DNA of 64,000 nucleotides, taken from contig OX392529.1 in the NCBI GenBank assembly GCA_947623455.1, positions 2,294,001-2,358,000 on the forward strand. The letters are read 5' to 3'. Position 1 is the stretch's first letter. Every line of letters begins with the position of its first letter. The stretch is from Mimachlamys varia. Taxonomy: Eukaryota; Mollusca; Bivalvia; Pectinida; Pectinidae. Position numbers and translations under genes: made by a program. The notes below the pieces were generated by a model. The model worked only from the letters and a program-made list of their open reading frames with translations. It ran no database searches and was not told the DNA's origin. Below, piece by piece: positions 18,547 to 50,501 of the stretch.

Positions 18547-18858
18547 AGTATCACATAGACAGTAGTGTCTGGTTGACCTCTGGTCAGTCTAAGGATGAGG
18601 AGTGGACAAGGCCTCCACAATCCAGGTATCACATAGGCAGTAGTGTCTGATTGACCTCTGGTCAGTCTAATGATGGGGAGTGGACAAGGCCTCCACAATC
18701 CAGGTATCACATAGGCAGTAGTGTCTGGTTGACCTCTGGTCAGTCTAAGGATGAGGAGTGGACAAGGCCTCTACAATCCAGGTATCACATAGGCAGTAGT
18801 GTCTGATTGACCTCTGGTCAGTCTAATGATGAGGAGTGGACAAGGCCTCCACAATCCA
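18547..18858. repeat. 78-bp array derived from the calcium sensor gene's terminal exon
   Basis: Four copies of a 78-bp unit start near 18547, 18625, 18703 and 18781. The last copy overlaps the final coding exon. Read on the minus strand it contains CCTGGATTGTGGAGGCC, encoding the P-W-I-V-E-A end of the protein, then the stop codon and the first 3' UTR bases. The other three copies lie 3' of the stop, so they repeat coding-end sequence inside the presumed 3' UTR. The period is a multiple of three (26 codons). Confidence 0.93.
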
Positions 18859-18915
18859 GGGGTCACATTTTGACCCTTCTCTAAACTCATCCTTCGTGAG
18901 TCGGCCATCATGATT
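18823..18915 (-). CDS. calcium sensor terminal coding exon (EF4 and C-terminus)
   Basis: 93 nt including TAG at 18825-18823. The acceptor is CCTGTTTGCAG. It encodes [19 protein letters not shown], then [11 protein letters not shown]. The F-x-EGSK-x-DP-x-IV-x-ALS pattern is typical of the frequenin branch. From about 18858 down, the exon lies inside a 78-bp tandem array, so the final 11-12 codons and the stop are part of the repeat unit. Confidence 0.92.
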
Positions 18916-21900
18916 CTGCAAACAGGAACACAGTGTTCAGAGAATATTTTTCTGGCAACAAATAGATTTTGAAAACTTTACAAACTAGAAACATCAAAAT
19001 TTTGGCAAGACTTGTCCAAATTTCTATTTCATGTACATAATCGAAGAAATGTTAATTATTTTAAAAGATTCTTTTGACATTAACAAATATCACCAATAAG
19101 AAATGAAGTTCCTTGTGTGTTCTGTTAAAGCTGTACCAGTTATACACCAATGGTCTCACCAACATTACACTACCCCCTGTTACTGACCGTGTCCATTTAG
19201 ACCAATGGTCTCACCAACATTACACTACCCCCTGTTACTGACCGTGTCCATTTAGACCAATGGTCTCACCAACATTACACTACCCCCTGTTACTGACCAT
19301 GTCCATTTAGACCAATGGTCTCACCAACATGACACTGCCCCCTGTTACTGACCGTGTCCATCTGAGAGAAGATCTTCTCCACACGTTTCTGGGGGGTGTC
19401 CTCATCCTTGGGCAGATCCAGCAGGTTTCCCACCATACTGTAGATTGCATCCACAATGTTGATCATCTCCTCCTTAGTGATGTAGCCGTCATTGTCAAGG
19501 TCATACAGACTGAATGCCCCTGTAAAGGTGAAGGTCACAGTCTAACTAACAAATTTCTAATAAATATACTTTTATAAGTGCTTTTGCTAGATAGTTTTCA
19601 CATGAGTAAATTACACTGTGTACATTGCTGACATAATTACAGTGGACCCGCGATAATCCGGACACCTTCATGCCCAGTCCAAACCGCCCAGATTACAAGT
19701 TTTCCGGACTGCCGAATTTTGTTTGCCAGGTCAAAAAAAATTGTCGTGCAAGAGTTATTTCCCTTGACTATATACACTGCAAGATGTTTAAATAACATTA
19801 CATCAATAAAGTTGGGTCTTTTGGTAAATATAAATATTTACATGTTTTCTAATATAGCCATATTCTGTACAACTATTGACACAGGTGACTTGCCCCGACA
19901 TTTTTCTCTCTGTGTGGATGAAAAATTTGTCCGGATTAGTGCTGGAATTTTGGTAATGGAAAGTATGTTCCGTTCCCAAAATGGAGTTCCAGAAATGGAA
20001 TCCAAATTTCCGGATTGATGAGTACAAATAACGTGACAGAAATCCTGTACAGATGAAACAGCCGTCTAGTAGGATTGAGTACTTACAGTCGAGCTTCTCG
20101 TCCAGAGATCCTCGCGAGGTGATGGACAAAGCACAGATAAACTCTTTAAAGGATATGTAGCCATCCTAAACAGAAAAGGTTAAACCAATTGAACAGGTTC
20201 TATAAAGGATATGTAGCCATCCTAAACAGAAAAGGTTAAACCAATTGAACAGGTTCTATAAAGGGTATGTAGCCATCCTAAACAGAAAAGGTTAAACCAA
20301 TTGAACAGGTTCTATAAAGGATATGTAGCCATCCTAAACAGAAAAGGTTAAACCAATTGAACAGGTTCTATAAAGGGTATGTAGCCATCCTAAACAGAAA
20401 AGGTTAAACCAATTGAACAGGTTCTATAAAGGATATGTAGCCATCCTAAACAGAAAAGGTTAAACCAATTGAACAGGTTCTATATAGGATACGTAGCCAT
20501 CCTAAACAGAAAAGGTTAATACGAACTAAACAGGTTCTATAAAGGATATGTAGCCATCCTTAACAGAAAAGGTTAAACGAATTGAACAGGTTCTATAAAG
20601 GATGTGTAGCCATCCTAAACAGAAAAGGTTAAACGAACTGAACAGGTTCTATAAAGGATATGTAGCCATCCTAAACAGAAAAGGTTAAACGAACTGAACA
20701 GGTTCTATAAAGGGTATGTAGCCATCCTAAACAGAAAAGGTTAAACCAATTGAACAGGTTCTATAAAGGGTATGTAGCCATCCTAAACAGAAAAGGTTAA
20801 ACCAATTGAACAGGTTCTATAAAGGATATGTTGCCATCCTAAACAGAAAAGGTTAAACGAACTGAACAGGTTCTATAAAGGATATGTTGCCATTCCAAAC
20901 AGAAAAGGTTAAACCAATTGAACAGGTTCTATAAAGGGTATGTAGCCATCCTAAACAGAAAAGGTTAATACGAACTGAACAGGTTCTATAAAGGATTTGT
21001 AGCCATCCTAAACAGAAACGGTTCATACGAATTGAACAGGTTCTATAAAGGATATGTAGCCATCCTAAACAGAAAAGGTTAAACCAATTGAACAGGTTCT
21101 ATAAAGGATATGTTGCCATCCTTAACAGAAAAGGTTAAACGAATTGAACAGGTTCTATAAAGGATATGTAGCCATCCTAAACAAAAAAGGTTAAACGAAC
21201 TGAACAGGTTCTATAAAGGGTATGTAGCCATCCTAAACAGAAAAGGTTAAACCAATTGAACAGGTTCTATAAAGGATATGTAGCCATCCTAAAAGAAAAG
21301 GTTAAACCAATTGAACAGGTTCTATAAAGGATATGTAGCCATCCTAAACAGAAAAGGTTAAACGAACTGAACAGGTTCTATAAAGGATATGTAGCCATCC
21401 TAAACAGAAAAGGTTAAACGAACTGAACAGGTTCTATAAAGGATATGTAGCCATCCTAAACAGAAAAGATTAAACGAATTGAACAGGTTCCATAAAGGGT
21501 ATGTAGCCATCCTAAACAGAAAAGGTTAATACGAACTGAACAGATTCTATAAAGGATATGTAGCCATCCTAAACAGAAAAGGTTAATACGAACTGAACAG
21601 GTTCTATTAAGGATATGTAGCCATCCTAATCAGAAAAGGTTCATATGAAATGAACAGGTTCTATAAAGGATATGTAGCCATCCTAAACAGAAAAGGTTCA
21701 TACCAATTGAACAGGTTCTATAAAGGATATGTAGCCATCCTAAACAGAAAAGGTTCATACGAACTGAACAGGTTCTATAAAGGATATGTAGCCATCCTAA
21801 ACAGAAACGGTTCATACGAATTGAACAGATTCTATAAAGGGTATGTAGCCATCCTAAACAGAAAAGGTTAAACGAACTGAACAGGTTCTATAAAGGATAT

Positions 21901-24900
21901 GTAGCCATCCTAGATAGAAAAGGTTCATACCAATTGAACAGGTTCTATAAAGGATATGTATCCATCCTAAACAGAAAAGGTTAAACGAACTGAACAGGTT
22001 CTATAAAGGGTATGCAGCCATCCTAAACAGAAAAGGTTAATACCAATTGAACAGGTTCTATAAAGGGTATGTATCCATCCTAAATAGAAAAGGTTAAAAA
22101 AATTGAACAGGTTCTATAAAGGATATGTAGCCATCCTAAACAGAAAAGGTTCATACTAATTGAACAGGTTCTATAAAGGATATGTAGCCATCCTAATCAG
22201 AAAAGGTTAATACGAACTGAACAGGTTCTATAAAGGATATGTAGCCATCCTTAACAGAAAAGGTTAAACCAATTGAACAGGTTCTATAAAGGATATGTAG
22301 CCATCCTAAACAGAAAAGGTTAAACGAACTGAACAGGTTCTATAAAGGATATGTAGCCATCCTAAACAGAAAAGGTTAAACGAACTGAACAGGTTCTATA
22401 AAGGGTATGTAGCCATCCTAAACAGAAAAGGTTAATACCAATTGAACAGGTTCTATAAAGGATATGTAGCCATCCTAAATAGAAAAGGTTAAACCAATTG
22501 AACAGGTTCTATAAAGGATATGTAGCCATCCTAAACAGAAAAGGTTAAACCAATTGAACAGGTTCTATAAAGGATATGTAGCCATCCTAAACAGAAAAGG
22601 TTAAACCAATTGAACAGGTTCTATAAAGGATATGTTGCCATCCCAAACAGAAAAGGTTAAACGAACTGAACAGGTTCTATAAAGGATATGTAACCATCCT
22701 AAACAGAAAAGGTTAAACCAATTGAACAGGTTCTATAAAGGGTATGTAGCCATCCTAAACAGAAAAGGTTCATACCAATTGAACAGGTTCTATAAAGGAT
22801 ATGCAGCCATCCTAAACAAAAAAGGTTAAACGAACTGAACAGGTTCTATAAAGGATATGTAGCCATCCTAAACATAAAAGGTTAATACCAATTGAACAGG
22901 TTCTATAAAGGATATGTAGCCATCCTAAACATAAAAGGTTAATACCAATTGAACAGGTTCTATAAAGGATATGTAGCCATCCTAAACAGAAAAGGTTAAT
23001 ACGAACTGAACAGGTTCTATAAAGGGTATGTAGCCATCCTAATCAGAAAAGGTTAATACGAACTGAACAGCTTCTATAAAGGATATGTAGCCATCCTAAA
23101 CAAAAAAGGTTAAACGAACTGAACAGGTTCTATAAAGGATATGTAGCCATCCTAAACAAAAAAGGTTAAACGAACTGAACAGGTTCTATAAAGGATATGT
23201 AGCCATCCTAAACAGAAAAGGTTAAACGAACTGAACAGGTTCTATAAAGGGTATGTAGCCATCCTAAACAGAAAAGGTTGAACGAACTGAACAGGTTCTA
23301 TAAAGGATATGTAGCCATCCTTAACAGAAAAGGTTAAACGAACTGAACAGGTTCTATAAAGGATATGTAGCCATCCTAAACAGAAAAGGTTAAACGAACT
23401 GAACAGGTTCTATAAAGGATATGTAGCCATCCTTAACAGAAAAGGTTAAACCAATTGAACAGGTTCTATAAAGGATATGCAGCCATCCTAAACAAAAAAG
23501 GTTAAACGAACTGAACAGGTTCTATAAAGGATATGTAGCCATCCTAAACAAAAAAGGTTAAACCAATTGAACAGGTTCTATAAAGGATATGTAGCCATCC
23601 TAATCAGAAAAGGTTAATACGAACTGAACAGGTTCTATAAAGGATATGTAGCCATCCTAAACAGAAAAGGTTCATACCAATTGAACAGGTTCTATAAAGG
23701 ATATGTAGCCATCCTAAACAGAAAAGGTTAAACCAATTGAACAGGTTCTATAAAGGGTATGTAGCCATCCTAAACAGAAAAGGTTAAACCAATTGAACAG
23801 GTTCTATAAAGGATATGTAGCCATCCTAATCAGAAAAGGTTAATACGAACTGAACAGGTTCTATAAAGGATATGTAGCCATCCTAATCAGAAAAGTTTCA
23901 TACGAAATGAACAGGTTCTATAAAGGATATGTAGCCATCCTAAACAGAAAAGGTTAAACCAATTGAACAGGTTCTATAAAGGGTATGTAGCCATCCTAAA
24001 CTGAAAAGGTTAATACGAACTGAACAGGTTCTATAAAGGATATGTAGCCATCCTAAACAGAAAAGGTTCATACAAATTGAACAGGTTCTATAAAGGATAT
24101 GTAGCCATCCTAATCAGAAAAGGTTAATACGAACTGAACAGGTTCTATAAAGGATATGTAGCTATCCTAATCAGAAAAGGTTCATACGAAATGAACAGGT
24201 TCTATAAAGGATATGTAGCCATCCTAATCAGAAAAGGTTCATACGAACTGAACAGGCTCTATAAAGGATATGTAGCCATCCTAAATAGAAAAAGGTTCAT
24301 ACCAATTGAACAGGTTCTATAAAGGATATGTAGCCATCCTTAAACAGAAAAGGTTCATACGAACTGAACAGGTTCTATAAAGGATATGTAGCCATCCTAA
24401 ACAGAAAAGGTTCATACCAATTGAACAGGTTCTATAAAGGGTATGTAGCCATCCTAAACAGAAAAGGTTGAACGAACTAAACAGGTTCTATAAAGGGTAT
24501 GTAGCCATCCTAAACAGAAAAGGTTGAACGAACTGAACAGGTTCTATAAAGGATATGTAGCCATCCTAAACAGAAAAGGTTCATACCAATTGAACAGGTT
24601 CTATAAAGGGTAAATATCAGTACTGCTTTCAGTTGTTATTCATAGGCAATGACAGTTTAAAGTATGGGTTGTATATAGTATTTAGGCAATGACAGTTTAA
24701 ATAATGGGTTGTATATAGTATTTAGGCAATGACAGTTTAAATAATGGGTTGTATATAGTATTTAGGCAATGACAGTTTAAAGTATGGGTTGTATATAGTA
24801 TATAGGCAATGACAGTTTAAAGTATGGGTTGTATATAGTATATAGGCAAGGGCAGTTTAAAGTATGGGTTGTATATAGTATTTAGGCAATGACAGTTTAA

Positions 24901-25253
24901 AGTATGGGTTGTATATAGTATTTAGGCAATGACAGTTTAAAGATAGGCAATGACAGTTTAAAGAATGGGTTGTATATAGTATATAGGCAATGACAGTTTA
25001 AAGTATGGGTTGTATATAGTATATAGGCAATGACAGTTTAAAGTATGGGTTGTATATAGTATATAGGCATTGACAGTTTAAAGTATGGGTTGTATATAGT
25101 ATATAGGCAATGACAGTTTAAAGTATGGGTTGTATATAGTATATAGGAATTAATAACCGTTACCTTGTTGGCATCAAATACATTGAAGACAAAACTTGCA
25201 AATTTACTGGGGTCACCATTAGGAAAGAATTGCTGGTAAATTGTCTGAAACTC
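18823..25253 (-). CDS. neuronal calcium sensor protein, 3' part of gene (four exons)
   Basis: EF-hand calcium sensor of the NCS-1/frequenin and recoverin family, which couples Ca2+ to effectors such as channels, kinases and GPCR regulators at membranes in neurons. Exons join(25253-25164, 20165-20087, 19519-19353, 18915-18823) splice in frame with GT/AG sites into 142 residues plus a stop. Three complete EF loops are visible: [24 protein letters not shown] and [12 protein letters not shown], each with D1, D/N3, D5, G6 and E12. The family hallmarks [14 protein letters not shown] and FVFNVFD lie just before EF2. NCS-1 is about 190 residues, so about 47 N-terminal residues (myristoylation site, degenerate EF1) are missing; I found no exon for them. 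The tail ends ALSTPHH rather than the NCS-1 tail, so the exact paralogue is open. Introns are 4998, 567 and 437 bp; the longest is almost wholly minisatellite. Confidence 0.93.
18916..19145. other. non-repetitive part of calcium sensor intron 3
   Basis: Intronic sequence between the terminal exon acceptor and the 55-bp array. It includes the polypyrimidine acceptor tract near 18916-18935 on the minus strand. No other feature is seen. Confidence 0.6.
19146..19365. repeat. 55-bp array carrying the exon C splice donor
   Basis: Four copies start near 19146, 19201, 19256 and 19311. On the minus strand each contains ATGGACACGGTCAGTAACAG (one copy reads ACATGGTCAGT), i.e. the last nine exon bases plus the 5' splice site. 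The copy overlapping the exon end is the real donor. The other three lie downstream within the intron as extra donor-like sites. Confidence 0.92.
19353..19519 (-). CDS. calcium sensor exon C (EF3 and linker)
   Basis: 167 nt. The acceptor is CACCTTTACAG and the donor is ATGGACACG|GTCAGTAAC. It encodes [19 protein letters not shown] (the W spans the junction), then a helix and linker ending KIFSQMDT, the first two residues of the EF4 loop. The linker [18 protein letters not shown] matches the conserved family pattern (NCS-1 has a similar acidic E-x-x-TP-x-KRV stretch). The donor sequence is tandemly repeated downstream in the intron. Confidence 0.94.
19640..19946. mobile_element. possible degenerate pogo/Tigger-like MITE
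   Basis: CAGTGGACCCGCGATAATCC starts right after a TA dinucleotide and resembles pogo/Tigger-class terminal repeats. GTCCGGATTAGTGCTGGA at about 19929-19946 is a partial inverted counterpart. Related TTCCGGACT and TTCCGGATT pieces occur inside and just beyond. There is no transposase. The element lies in the intron between exons B and C. The right end is decayed, so both family and boundary are tentative. Confidence 0.4.
20087..20165 (-). CDS. calcium sensor exon B (rest of EF2)
   Basis: 79 nt starting GATGGCTACATATCC and ending CTCGACT before GTAAGTACT, a near-perfect donor. It encodes DGYISFKEF, then [17 protein letters not shown], and supplies the first base of a Trp codon completed by the next exon. 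The acceptor is CTGTTTAG. The acceptor and at least the first 15 exon bases are also the core of the 56-bp array immediately upstream. This copy is chosen as the real exon because only it continues into conserved coding sequence and a donor. Confidence 0.94.
20166..24612. repeat. 56-bp array of a 3' splice site plus exon start, about 80 copies
   Basis: Read on the minus strand, the unit contains AACCTTTTCTGTTTAG followed by GATGGCTACATATCC, then TTTATAGAACC. This is the polypyrimidine tract, the AG acceptor and at least the first 15 bases of exon B. The period is 56 bp and the array fills about 4.45 kb of the intron right up to the true exon. Variants are small (AATTGAAC or GAACTGAAC; TAAACAG, TTAACAG or TAATCAG). 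Acceptor, TTTAG and polypyrimidine tract are kept in most copies. Confidence 0.96.
24613..25150. repeat. 40-bp minisatellite, about 13 copies
   Basis: The unit is TAGGCAATGACAGTTTAAAG plus TATGGGTTGTATATAGTAT(T/A), 40 bp, with one truncated unit near 24940. It fills the rest of the long calcium sensor intron and ends about 15 bp from the exon A donor. Confidence 0.93.
25164..25253 (-). CDS. calcium sensor exon A (most 5' exon seen)
   Basis: 90 nt, 30 codons, beginning [11 protein letters not shown] and ending VFDANK inside the EF2 loop. The acceptor is GTTTCAG at 25254-25260. The donor is AAG|GTAACGG with the G of GT at 25163. Both ends are phase 0. A 40-bp array ends about 15 bp beyond the donor and a 20-bp array starts about 16-20 bp beyond the acceptor, so the exon sits as a 90-bp island between two minisatellites. 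Confidence 0.93.
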
Positions 25254-25270: not shown

Positions 25271-25698
25271 GTGATACATTTATAGTAGTGTTTTCACATT
25301 TATAGTAGTGTTTTCACATTTATAGTAGTGTTTTCACATTTATAGTAGTGTTTTCACATTTATAGTAGTGTTTTCACATTTATAGTAGTGTTTTCACATT
25401 TATAGTAGTGTTTTCACATTTATAGTAGTTTTCACATTTATAGTAGTGTTTTCACATTTATAGTAGTGTTTTCACATTTATAGTAGTGTTTTCACATTTG
25501 TAGTAGTGTTTTCACATTTATAGTAGTGTTTTCACATTTATAGTAGTGTTTTCACATTTATAGTAGTGTTTTCACATTTGTAGTAGTGTTTTCACATTTA
25601 TAGTAGTGTTTTCACATTTATAGTAGTGTTTTCACATTTGTAGTAGTGTTTTCACATTTATAGTAGTGTTTTCACATTTATAGTAGTGTTTTCACATT
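25271..25698. repeat. 20-bp minisatellite, about 21 copies
   Basis: The unit is TTTATAGTAGTGTTTTCACA, with occasional TTTGTAGTAG variants and one shortened unit near 25428. It lies just upstream (in gene sense) of the exon A acceptor. The copies are almost identical, so it is young. Confidence 0.94.
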
Positions 25699-26241: not shown

Positions 26242-27157
26242 CAAATTGTTGTCCAACCAATTTGGCATAATGATTATATTAAAATAAATAGAACATCTAC
26301 TTTCAATAGACACTGGTGTTCAAAAGGAATTTTTTTTTATCAATGATCTTTTAATAAATAACCATTTTATGTCATTTGCAGAGTTTACAGAAAGATATGA
26401 TGTCGACACAACCTTTGTAGAATATTACGGCCTTATTAATGCCATACCAAAAGATTGGAAACATGTTCTGAGAGAGCAAGATGAGGTACCGATACAGAAT
26501 TCAACTTGTAAAATGATAGAGTATATGAAAAGAAATGAAAAAGTTACAAAATTTTTTAATAACTTGTTGCTTAACAAATATAAAACAAAGCCAACAAGTC
26601 AAAGAAAATGGAATGAGATTTTGCAAGTTAATATAGCTGATGAGGCATGGCAAGCTTTCTACTTGTCTCCTAGAAATCTAACTGATGACACTAAACTTCA
26701 GAATTTTCAGTTTAAAATATTTCATAATATTCTGTATACAAATGTCAAATTAATGAAAGTTAAATTAAGTGAAACAGAAAGATGTACATTCTGTGAAATT
26801 GGAAGAGAGACAATGTTACATTTATTTTGGGACTGTTGTCATGTAAAATCCTTTTGGTCCTCATTCTTTAATCTAATTCATGCCAAACATGGTATTGAAT
26901 TAGCTTTTGATCCACAATCAATACTTTTTGGTGTATGTATTGATAAATTTAATTATGAGGTAAATTTTCTATTGCTTCTATTGAAGTTTTTTGTGTATTA
27001 TTGTAAGCAAAGGGAGACTATCCCATCAATTGATACTGGTAAATTGTATATATATTATTATAAGAAAATAGAGGAGTTTGGTCTCTATTCTTATAGTTAT
27101 AAGAAAAGAGACAAAATTAGAAAAAAATGGAATTTTATTATTGAAATTATTCAATAG
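26242..27157 (+). pseudogene. LINE ORF2 C-terminal fragment with zf-RVT motif, frameshifted
   Basis: The open part from 26369 encodes 262 residues. A C-x2-C-x8-H-x4-C zinc-knuckle at residues 139-156 (CTFCEIGRETMLH, then LFWDC) and the FQFKIFHNIL segment before it mark the domain that follows reverse transcriptase in L1/Tx1-like non-LTR elements. Upstream homology continues in another frame (QPIWHNDYIKINR, then FNRHWCSKGI). It joins the main frame (FINDLLINNHF) only across a T9 run at 26330-26338, so a slippage frameshift separates the two parts. No RT catalytic region or endonuclease is present. The fragment is dead on arrival and not a host gene. Confidence 0.85.
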
Positions 27158-49490: not shown

Positions 49491-50501
49491 TCATGCCACG
49501 GTGAGTTGGCGCTGGTGGGCGGGGCCCCGTTTGGCGTCGTCGACCCACACATGAGGACTTGGGGAATATTTGGCCTTGTAAGCGGGTGTTAACTTGGTGA
49601 GGCGTGACACAATGTTCTGTAACTCTTCGTCTGTGACCTTCTTTTTCATCCTTCTTTTGCGTTTTTCCTCCAGTTGTGGTACACGGATGTTTGTTTTTGT
49701 AATCTTAGGGGCATTATAGTTAAAGTATTTGTTTGCTAAAGGCTCCCCTCCAAGGCTTGCTACGGTGTGTTTGGTCAGACGAGCGTTTACATCCTCCAGC
49801 TCGGAGACTGGTACGCTGCGTCCTCCAATCACATGATCTGTGTACCTGCGCGGAATGCCTGCTCCTCCAGTACTGGCTACTGTAGACCTGGTAATGCGTT
49901 TGACAATGCCATTCAGTTGATCTGGAGAAGCTGTTCGTGATCCATAGACGTAATCCTTGTTTTCAAACTTTGCCGCGATTGTTTTGCCTCCCTGACTTGA
50001 CACTGTTGGGCGGGTTACACGGTGAGTTATTCCGTTCAACTCCTCAGCCGTCACACTTTCGTACGGACTTCCAACCCATGTACTATCGTTTGTTGTACTC
50101 GCGCGCGAACTCATGGTAGTCATGGCTGATCGACTGCGGGGCTCTCGCATCAGAGGTAAAGAATATCCACTTCTTGCAGATCTTCGTCCTGAGTTTAAGT
50201 CTCGTTGATCTCTGTAAATTTCGTAGGAAGTTTTTGGCCGTTCAAAGTCTTTAAAGCACTTATCCTCTGCTGCCCACGCACCTTTGCTGTGTCCCCTGCT
50301 GCAGGGCCGGGATGTTGGTAGGGCCAGGCGGTCGACCTGCTGCTCCAAGTATTTAGAGTCCACGTTATGCCAGGGCCCTATCACTCGGAAGTTGCCAAGT
50401 TTTGCACCGAGGATGTAGAGTTTCTCCGCGGTCATGTACTGCTGCTCTGTGAGCGAGGGTTTCTCCTCTGTCCTGGGACTCTCCGCCCCCGATACAGCCA
50501 T
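49491..50501 (-). CDS. uncharacterised 336-residue protein with five-fold motif
   Basis: I do not recognise the family. It is one uninterrupted frame of 336 codons, with ATG at 50501-50499 in a good context (ACTATGG) and TGA at 49493-49491. GC content is clearly higher than in its surroundings. The motif L-x-x-[IV]-x-x-R-[LIV]-[TA]-x-x-T recurs at about residues 52-63 (LEQQVDRLALPT), 155-166 (LNGITHRVTRPT), 196-207 (LNGIVKRITRST), 235-246 (LEDVNARLTKHT) and 294-305 (LQNIVSRLTKLT). The middle three are followed by SxGG-type turns and a tyrosine or phenylalanine. Residues 278-288 form a basic cluster (EEKRKRRMKKK). There is no signal peptide, membrane segment or enzyme motif. Short R-[LIV]-T-type repeats are compatible with a filament or microtubule-associated protein, but that is a guess. 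Confidence 0.85.
   Translation of the reverse strand: MAVSGAESPRTEEKPSLTEQQYMTAEKLYILGAKLGNFRVIGPWHNVDSKYLEQQVDRLALPTSRPCSRGHSKGAWAAEDKCFKDFERPKTSYEIYRDQRDLNSGRRSARSGYSLPLMREPRSRSAMTTMSSRASTTNDSTWVGSPYESVTAEELNGITHRVTRPTVSSQGGKTIAAKFENKDYVYGSRTASPDQLNGIVKRITRSTVASTGGAGIPRRYTDHVIGGRSVPVSELEDVNARLTKHTVASLGGEPLANKYFNYNAPKITKTNIRVPQLEEKRKRRMKKKVTDEELQNIVSRLTKLTPAYKAKYSPSPHVWVDDAKRGPAHQRQLTVA

Follow-up and report, generated by a model that had tools for sequence, protein, structure and literature searches.

Tandem copies of a 3' splice site precede an exon of an NCS-1-type calcium sensor gene in the bivalve Mimachlamys varia

Structure of the acceptor array

The bivalve Mimachlamys varia possesses a calcium sensor gene of the NCS-1 type in which the intron preceding one coding exon (exon b) contains dozens of tandem copies of that exon's own 3' splice site. 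The gene was analysed in a stretch of 64,000 nt (assembly GCA_947623455.1, 975 Mb in 71 contigs; contig OX392529.1, C3:2294001-2358000), hereafter the window, the positions of which are used below unless another contig is named. The array (20143..24609, minus strand) is a head-to-tail minisatellite for which Tandem Repeats Finder (TRF) reports a period of 56, 79.2 copies and 93% matches. Its unit consists of a branch-point-like sequence, a polypyrimidine tract, the acceptor AG and the first ~19-23 nt of exon b. A fuzzy search returned 79 copies of the acceptor and exon start, running from 24565 to 20165; these are 78 decoys followed by the true start of exon b as the last copy. Both counts agree with the first-pass annotation, which had described about 80 such copies with the real exon, at 20165, as the final unit. 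The most apt reading of the array is that it arose neutrally, through tandem duplication spanning the intron-exon junction, and that splicing tolerates it. The whole of this explanation, namely that the minisatellite was born at the junction, that its decoys are ignored through exon definition and that messages arising from decoy use are removed by nonsense-mediated decay, is given a probability of about two in three.

The copies are closely alike. The AG is kept in 77 of the 79, together with a polypyrimidine tract, and the unit is thus one that bears a splice site. From -20 to +3, 26 of the 78 decoys are identical to the true site; this falls to 15 from -20 to +18 and to eight from -37 to +18, while 47 agree with the exon at each of its first 19 bases. 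One decoy, at 20277, agrees with the true site at every base over the 207 nt preceding the AG and the 12 nt following it. The exact 23-mer core CTGTTTAGGATGGCTACATATCC has 27 matches in the assembly, all of them inside this array. There are 51 distinct units among the 78, with a mean pairwise difference of 7.0%. The initial claim that every unit reproduces the acceptor and exon start therefore holds as near-identity and fails in its literal form. Given its length and identity, the array is not explicable by chance.

All 78 decoys, if used, would lead into an early stop codon. The stop is TAA in 44 units, TAG in eighteen and TGA in sixteen, and it is reached after 13 codons in 60 units, 18 codons in fourteen, 25 codons in two and 10 codons in two. 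The predicted truncation was accordingly correct for the whole array, but its stated form (13 residues and then TAA) does not hold for every unit.

The NCS-1-type gene

Four exons of the gene were identified in the window, all on the minus strand, open and with proper splice signals. Exon a (25164..25253; EFQTIYQQ...FDANK) ends at the donor AAG|GTAACG. Exon b (20087..20165; 79 nt, DGYISFKEF...LDEKLD) starts in phase 0, is homologous to the EF2 segment of NCS-1 and ends at the donor ACT|GTAAGT; the last unit of the array forms the first 23 nt of the exon. Exon c (19353..19519) encodes the EF3 segment, ending ...FSQMDT, with the donor ACG|GTCAGT, and exon d (coding part and stop at 18823..18915) encodes NHDGRL...STPHH followed by TAG. 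The intron between exons a and b (20166..25163) measures 4998 nt, and tandem arrays take up 4949 of these; a 40-bp array (24643..25147, minus strand) occupies its 5' end, beginning ~16 nt past the exon a donor. On the other side of exon a, a 20-bp array (25276..25698, minus strand) ends 22 nt upstream of the exon.

The product matches EF-hand families and the solved structures nearest to it are those of NCS-1 (E 9.7e-51), which places it in the NCS-1 family of EF-hand sensors. Among the matches listed, named mollusc NCS-1-like proteins are 76-87% identical, and the closest protein is 94% identical across the whole query, has a length of 188 aa and is encoded on a contig of at most 1262 bp. A contig this short can hold the complete coding sequence only if introns have been spliced out or never existed, so that it probably represents a transcript from a relative. 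Compared with other NCS-1 and frequenin sensors the protein is ordinary, and the unusual part of this gene is its introns. Exon 2 is located ~66.7 kb upstream of exon a. The intron between them (~66.7 kb; window positions 25254-64000 plus L009-L011) is 73% tandem array in its window part, and the array upstream of exon 2 stops 26 nt short of that exon.

It might be supposed that the locus is an artefact, with either a wrong copy number or a dead gene, as copy number in tandem arrays is prone to error and introns of this length cast doubt on an annotation. The units differ from one another, however, as described above, and the contig is chromosome-sized (64.1 Mb). The open exons with their splice signals, the 94% identity to the full-length protein of a relative and the presence of exon 2 further upstream likewise speak against such an error, which we consider very improbable.

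An intact, single-exon open reading frame (ORF) at 49494-50501 (minus strand) is nested in the NCS-1 intron, given the position of exon 2. Its six named matches are all from bivalves, the best being 92% identical, and no Pfam family was matched. In Sinanodonta, the matches to the NCS-1-type gene and to this ORF carry consecutive locus names.

Origin and age of the array

Exon b is old and the array is derived, as judged from homologous sequences. No insertion was present at the joint of exons a and b in any of the best 120 of 807 homologues. A paralogue at C3:36.78 Mb has an intron of 705 nt at the same phase-0 position; no array crosses its junction, and the only repeat is one of 27 bp and 1.9 copies in mid-intron. 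The absence of an insert in the homologues, together with the array-free paralogue, indicates that the exon is older than the array, and the shared intron position means that the gene is explicable without a new intron. The proposal of the first-pass annotation would have been contradicted by an orthologue whose exon begins with sequence unlike the unit; instead, the protein sequence at the exon start is conserved across the 120 homologues listed and in the paralogue, so that the unit is derived from the exon edge and not the exon from the unit. Since the unit contains both the intron end and ~19-23 nt of exon b, it has the composition of a boundary-spanning duplication.

The array was probably seeded by short near-matching sequences. 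Its left edge, ACCCTTTATAGAACC, matches the exon sequence TCCTTTAAAGAG at nine of 10 positions, and the two are ~56 bp apart; they appear as a CCTTTA[T/A]AGA pair at the flanks of the first and last unit. A tandem duplication between these 10-mers, CCTTTATAGA in the intron and CCTTTAAAGA in the exon, would yield precisely the observed unit and may have been the first to cross the junction, and unequal exchange would afterwards have enlarged it to 79 units. The coding exon would have stayed intact in this process because the last unit alone is attached to the remainder of exon b. Among exact repeats in the array, the longest (219 bp, shifted by two units) abuts the exon and exceeds the maximum of 209 seen in 200 shuffles of unit order, which indicates recent growth of the exon-side end of the array. 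Neighbouring units are barely more alike than distant ones (6.3% versus ~7% difference), so that no strong higher-order repeat is present. A comparison with viral contigs found no relative.

Changes affect two of the 156 AG bases, as compared with rates of 1.2% in the exon-like columns (column 13 omitted) and 0.6% in columns 20-30. The AG bases are neither purged nor specially preserved, as expected of neutral, homogenised units. Coding constraint on the decoys was considered and rejected: exon-like changes number 25, 6 and 4 at codon positions 1, 2 and 3 (18 of the 25 fall in column 13), a pattern that is not synonymous. These figures bear on the proposal that the decoys act as poison acceptors, some transcripts using them and decaying, with array length setting the output of the calcium sensor. 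The early stops of all 78 decoys, upstream of a later exon junction, and the retention of 77 of 79 AGs would suit such dosage control, and an intronic variable number tandem repeat (VNTR) of human ABCA7 alters splicing according to its length (PMC5954066). The stops, however, were inherited by descent and count as one event and not 78, and the AG is conserved no better than neighbouring columns. We regard this form of control as unlikely; regulation through the decoys is possible but unsupported.

Selection of the true acceptor

Common acceptor scores use 23 nt, and models of this local kind must score the 26 decoys that are identical over those 23 nt as equal to the true site. With these 26 identities, and eight decoys identical as far as -37 to +18, the site itself cannot carry the choice. 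The sequence differs past +19, where the true copy continues into a normal exon with the donor ACT|GTAAGT, and exon definition is for this reason the favoured and likeliest selector, a judgement made from sequence. The gene's three true donors, that of exon b among them, match seven of nine consensus positions, while the best donor-like sites within the array match five of nine. The last acceptor alone adjoins a normal 79-nt exon with a GTAAGT donor, and the 78 decoys upstream of it would be ignored on that account. A message in which a decoy had been used would contain an early stop and be subject to nonsense-mediated decay; splicing errors would thus cost expression and not yield a new protein.

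Several points weigh against this explanation. Exon definition alone leaves the last few decoys possible, with which the exon would measure 135, 191 or 247 nt. Transcription reaches the first decoy ~4.4 kb ahead of the true site, so that a pure first-come choice favours decoys. In predicted structures the hairpin at the true site is weaker than in 70 of the 78 decoys, and in one of four settings the true polypyrimidine tract is more open than that of 75 decoys.

The latter two points belong to the proposal that RNA structure conceals the decoys while the true site stays accessible. Predicted folding of the last 414 nt is more stable than that of 100 shuffled sequences (z -4.1), and decoy hairpins average -10.6 kcal/mol as against -8.6 kcal/mol at the true site. 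Over positions -3 to +1, however, the decoys are as open as the true site or more so in 67, 52, 71 and 65 of 78 cases in the four settings, and at the polypyrimidine tract they are at least as open in 3, 43, 19 and 25. Predicted accessibility gave no consistent difference between true site and decoys; structure was rejected as the selector, and concealment of this kind is thought quite improbable.

Two further readings concern the donor-like sequences of the units. In mutually exclusive clusters of the Dscam type, every copy is a full exon with an acceptor and a donor. A cluster of this sort is ruled out here by the donor match of the best unit (5/9 versus 7/9) and by the ~20 nt between copies. 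Alternatively, units containing GTATGA could supply a 36-nt, in-frame and stop-free micro-exon, giving rise to isoforms with an extra EF2-like segment. GTATGA lies exactly 36 nt past the acceptor in 15 of 78 units, six of which have G at -1. The donor-like match is merely 5/9, the ~20 nt left per unit is too short for an intron so that the next acceptors would need to be skipped, and none of the 120 homologues possesses an insert. Such a nursery of micro-exons is hardly to be credited.

Other junction arrays of the gene

The first-pass annotation described the repetition at exon b, to which it is not confined. A 55-bp array (19146..19361, minus strand) contains four copies of the exon c end and its donor, giving one true and three decoy donors, and a 78-bp array (18548..18868, minus strand) contains four copies of the C-terminal codons of exon d with the stop and 3' sequence. 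Arrays also span exon edges elsewhere in the genome, as described below. In the window, three of 56 array ends lie inside exons, within 426 bp of exon sequence. By block permutation, this number was reached in 0.8% of all 20,000 trials; among the 1,071 trials in which exons remained largely clear of arrays, the proportion was 3.1%.

Exon-edge arrays in other genes

Kinesin motor matches were found at 131 places in the assembly, and 100 regions (80 and then 20) were analysed with 250 bp on each side. The 31 places left out comprise two hits with almost no introns on small contigs, several long matches interrupted by stops, near-duplicates at C10:8.3-8.9 Mb and a small remainder. Several of the regions analysed come from one and the same gene. 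Exon edges were placed by means of a simple in-frame consensus score, and an edge was counted as spanned if an array overlapped it by at least 8 nt on both sides. Arrays span 13 of 78 donors and two of 80 acceptors in the first set, and three of 19 donors and one of 19 acceptors in the second. The total as called is 16/97 donors versus 3/99 acceptors (Fisher p 0.0014); after removal of the mis-called L101 (overlap ~6 nt) and counting of the similar L081 and L090 once, the donor figure is 14/96 (p 0.005). L087, with an overlap of ~7 nt, was missed in the donor count. On the donor side 16 arrays start in the exon and three within 80 nt of the intron, whereas on the acceptor side three reach the exon and ten stop within 80 nt of it (donor versus acceptor p 0.0009). 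The kinesin exons with a donor in a tandem array are L051, L062, L069, L073, L074, L081, L086, L090, L104, L107, L118, L123, L125, L126 and L131; in the 12 of these 15 that belong to the first set, between 14 and 79 nt of the exon lie within the array.

For random points, the corresponding frequency of a spanning array that starts no more than 80 nt upstream was 31/1500 and 34/1500, a null that, unlike the exons, is not conditioned on array-free upstream sequence. The donor excess persists at a rough conditioned value of 3.4% and would vanish near 11%, the estimate for the densest regions. Against the generality of the pattern, NCS-related exons of other loci have 13 donors, not one of which is spanned by an array, an outcome with a probability of 0.096 at a rate of 16.5%. 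The donor pattern rests on the kinesins and was not repeated in this small set. A KChIP/NCS-like exon (L030, 1726-1808) is followed by three copies of a 28-bp unit that starts with GTAAGT and ends with TTTCAG; the donor CAG|GTAAGT is present three times, and the array starts just ~3 nt inside the exon.

The closest counterpart of the exon b array lies in a kinesin gene. The P-loop exon L063/L144 (C14:17929215-17930565, minus strand) is preceded by 31 tandem 45-bp units, at the end of which stands the acceptor TTTCTGTTTAG|GTTCTGGGAAGTCC (GSGKS loop). AG is present in 31/31 units, each of the 30 decoys can be read in frame and without a stop as far as the true exon, and just one of the 30 agrees with the true site throughout -20 to +3. 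Use of these decoys would add 15-residue repeats, in contrast to those of the NCS-1-type gene, which would truncate.

Tentatively, and with less confidence than doubt, these observations suggest that exon-intron junctions, chiefly 5' splice sites, are birthplaces of minisatellites in this genome, downstream decoy donors being tolerated since the true donor is made first and upstream decoy acceptors only rarely. On this reading the arrays are anchored within the ends of exons and bring working splice-site sequence, in tens of copies, into the intron. The wider pattern suggests that exon edges can be duplicated frequently in a minisatellite-rich genome, and the imbalance between donors and acceptors could measure selection on decoys. 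If this reading is true, the NCS-1 array with its 78 decoys and the kinesin array with its 30 provide rare natural tests of choice among dozens of locally near-identical acceptors.

Tandem-array content of the region

Manual merging of the TRF output gives 28 tandem arrays in the window, which cover 78% of it. Eight flanking stretches of 10 kb have an array content of 59-100%, and eight stretches of 5 kb sampled elsewhere in the genome average 39% (range 0.8-100%). By these measures the genome is minisatellite-rich and this region is above its average. A 289-aa ORF at 26288-27154 (plus strand) with a match to zf-RVT is a retrotransposon remnant.

Comparison with known systems

No tandem acceptor array of such size was found described in the open-licence literature searched, as judged from titles and the openings of abstracts. 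Human ABCA7 and a potato RdRp gene support this kind of event, and neither has dozens of tandem acceptors (PMC5954066; PMC4974935). The ABCA7 intronic VNTR has a 25-bp unit, the first two bases of which form the donor; retention of one unit causes a frameshift and an early stop, and splicing varies with array length (PMC5954066). What it shares with the present array is tandem repetition, within an intron, of a unit that includes a splice site. In ABCA7, however, this is a donor and the effect of length is skipping of exon 19, whereas the array described here carries an acceptor and exon start in 79 copies and is known from sequence (PMC5954066). The potato RdRp gene gained an intron by tandem duplication across an intron-exon boundary, in which the intron 3' end and the start of the next exon were duplicated and the branch site, polypyrimidine tract and acceptor were copied (PMC4974935). 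There a single duplication made a new intron, while here ~78 extra copies are present with no sign of one (PMC4974935). The Caenorhabditis elegans minisatellite CeRep25B is intronic, lies near alternative exons and has been linked to splicing (PMC4039745); its motifs are described as regulating from beside splice sites, whereas in the NCS-1-type gene the splice sites themselves are repeated. Studies of acceptor choice usually set no more than two or three sites in competition. With 78 natural competitors, the NCS-1 intron offers a natural test of first-come choice, proximity and exon definition.

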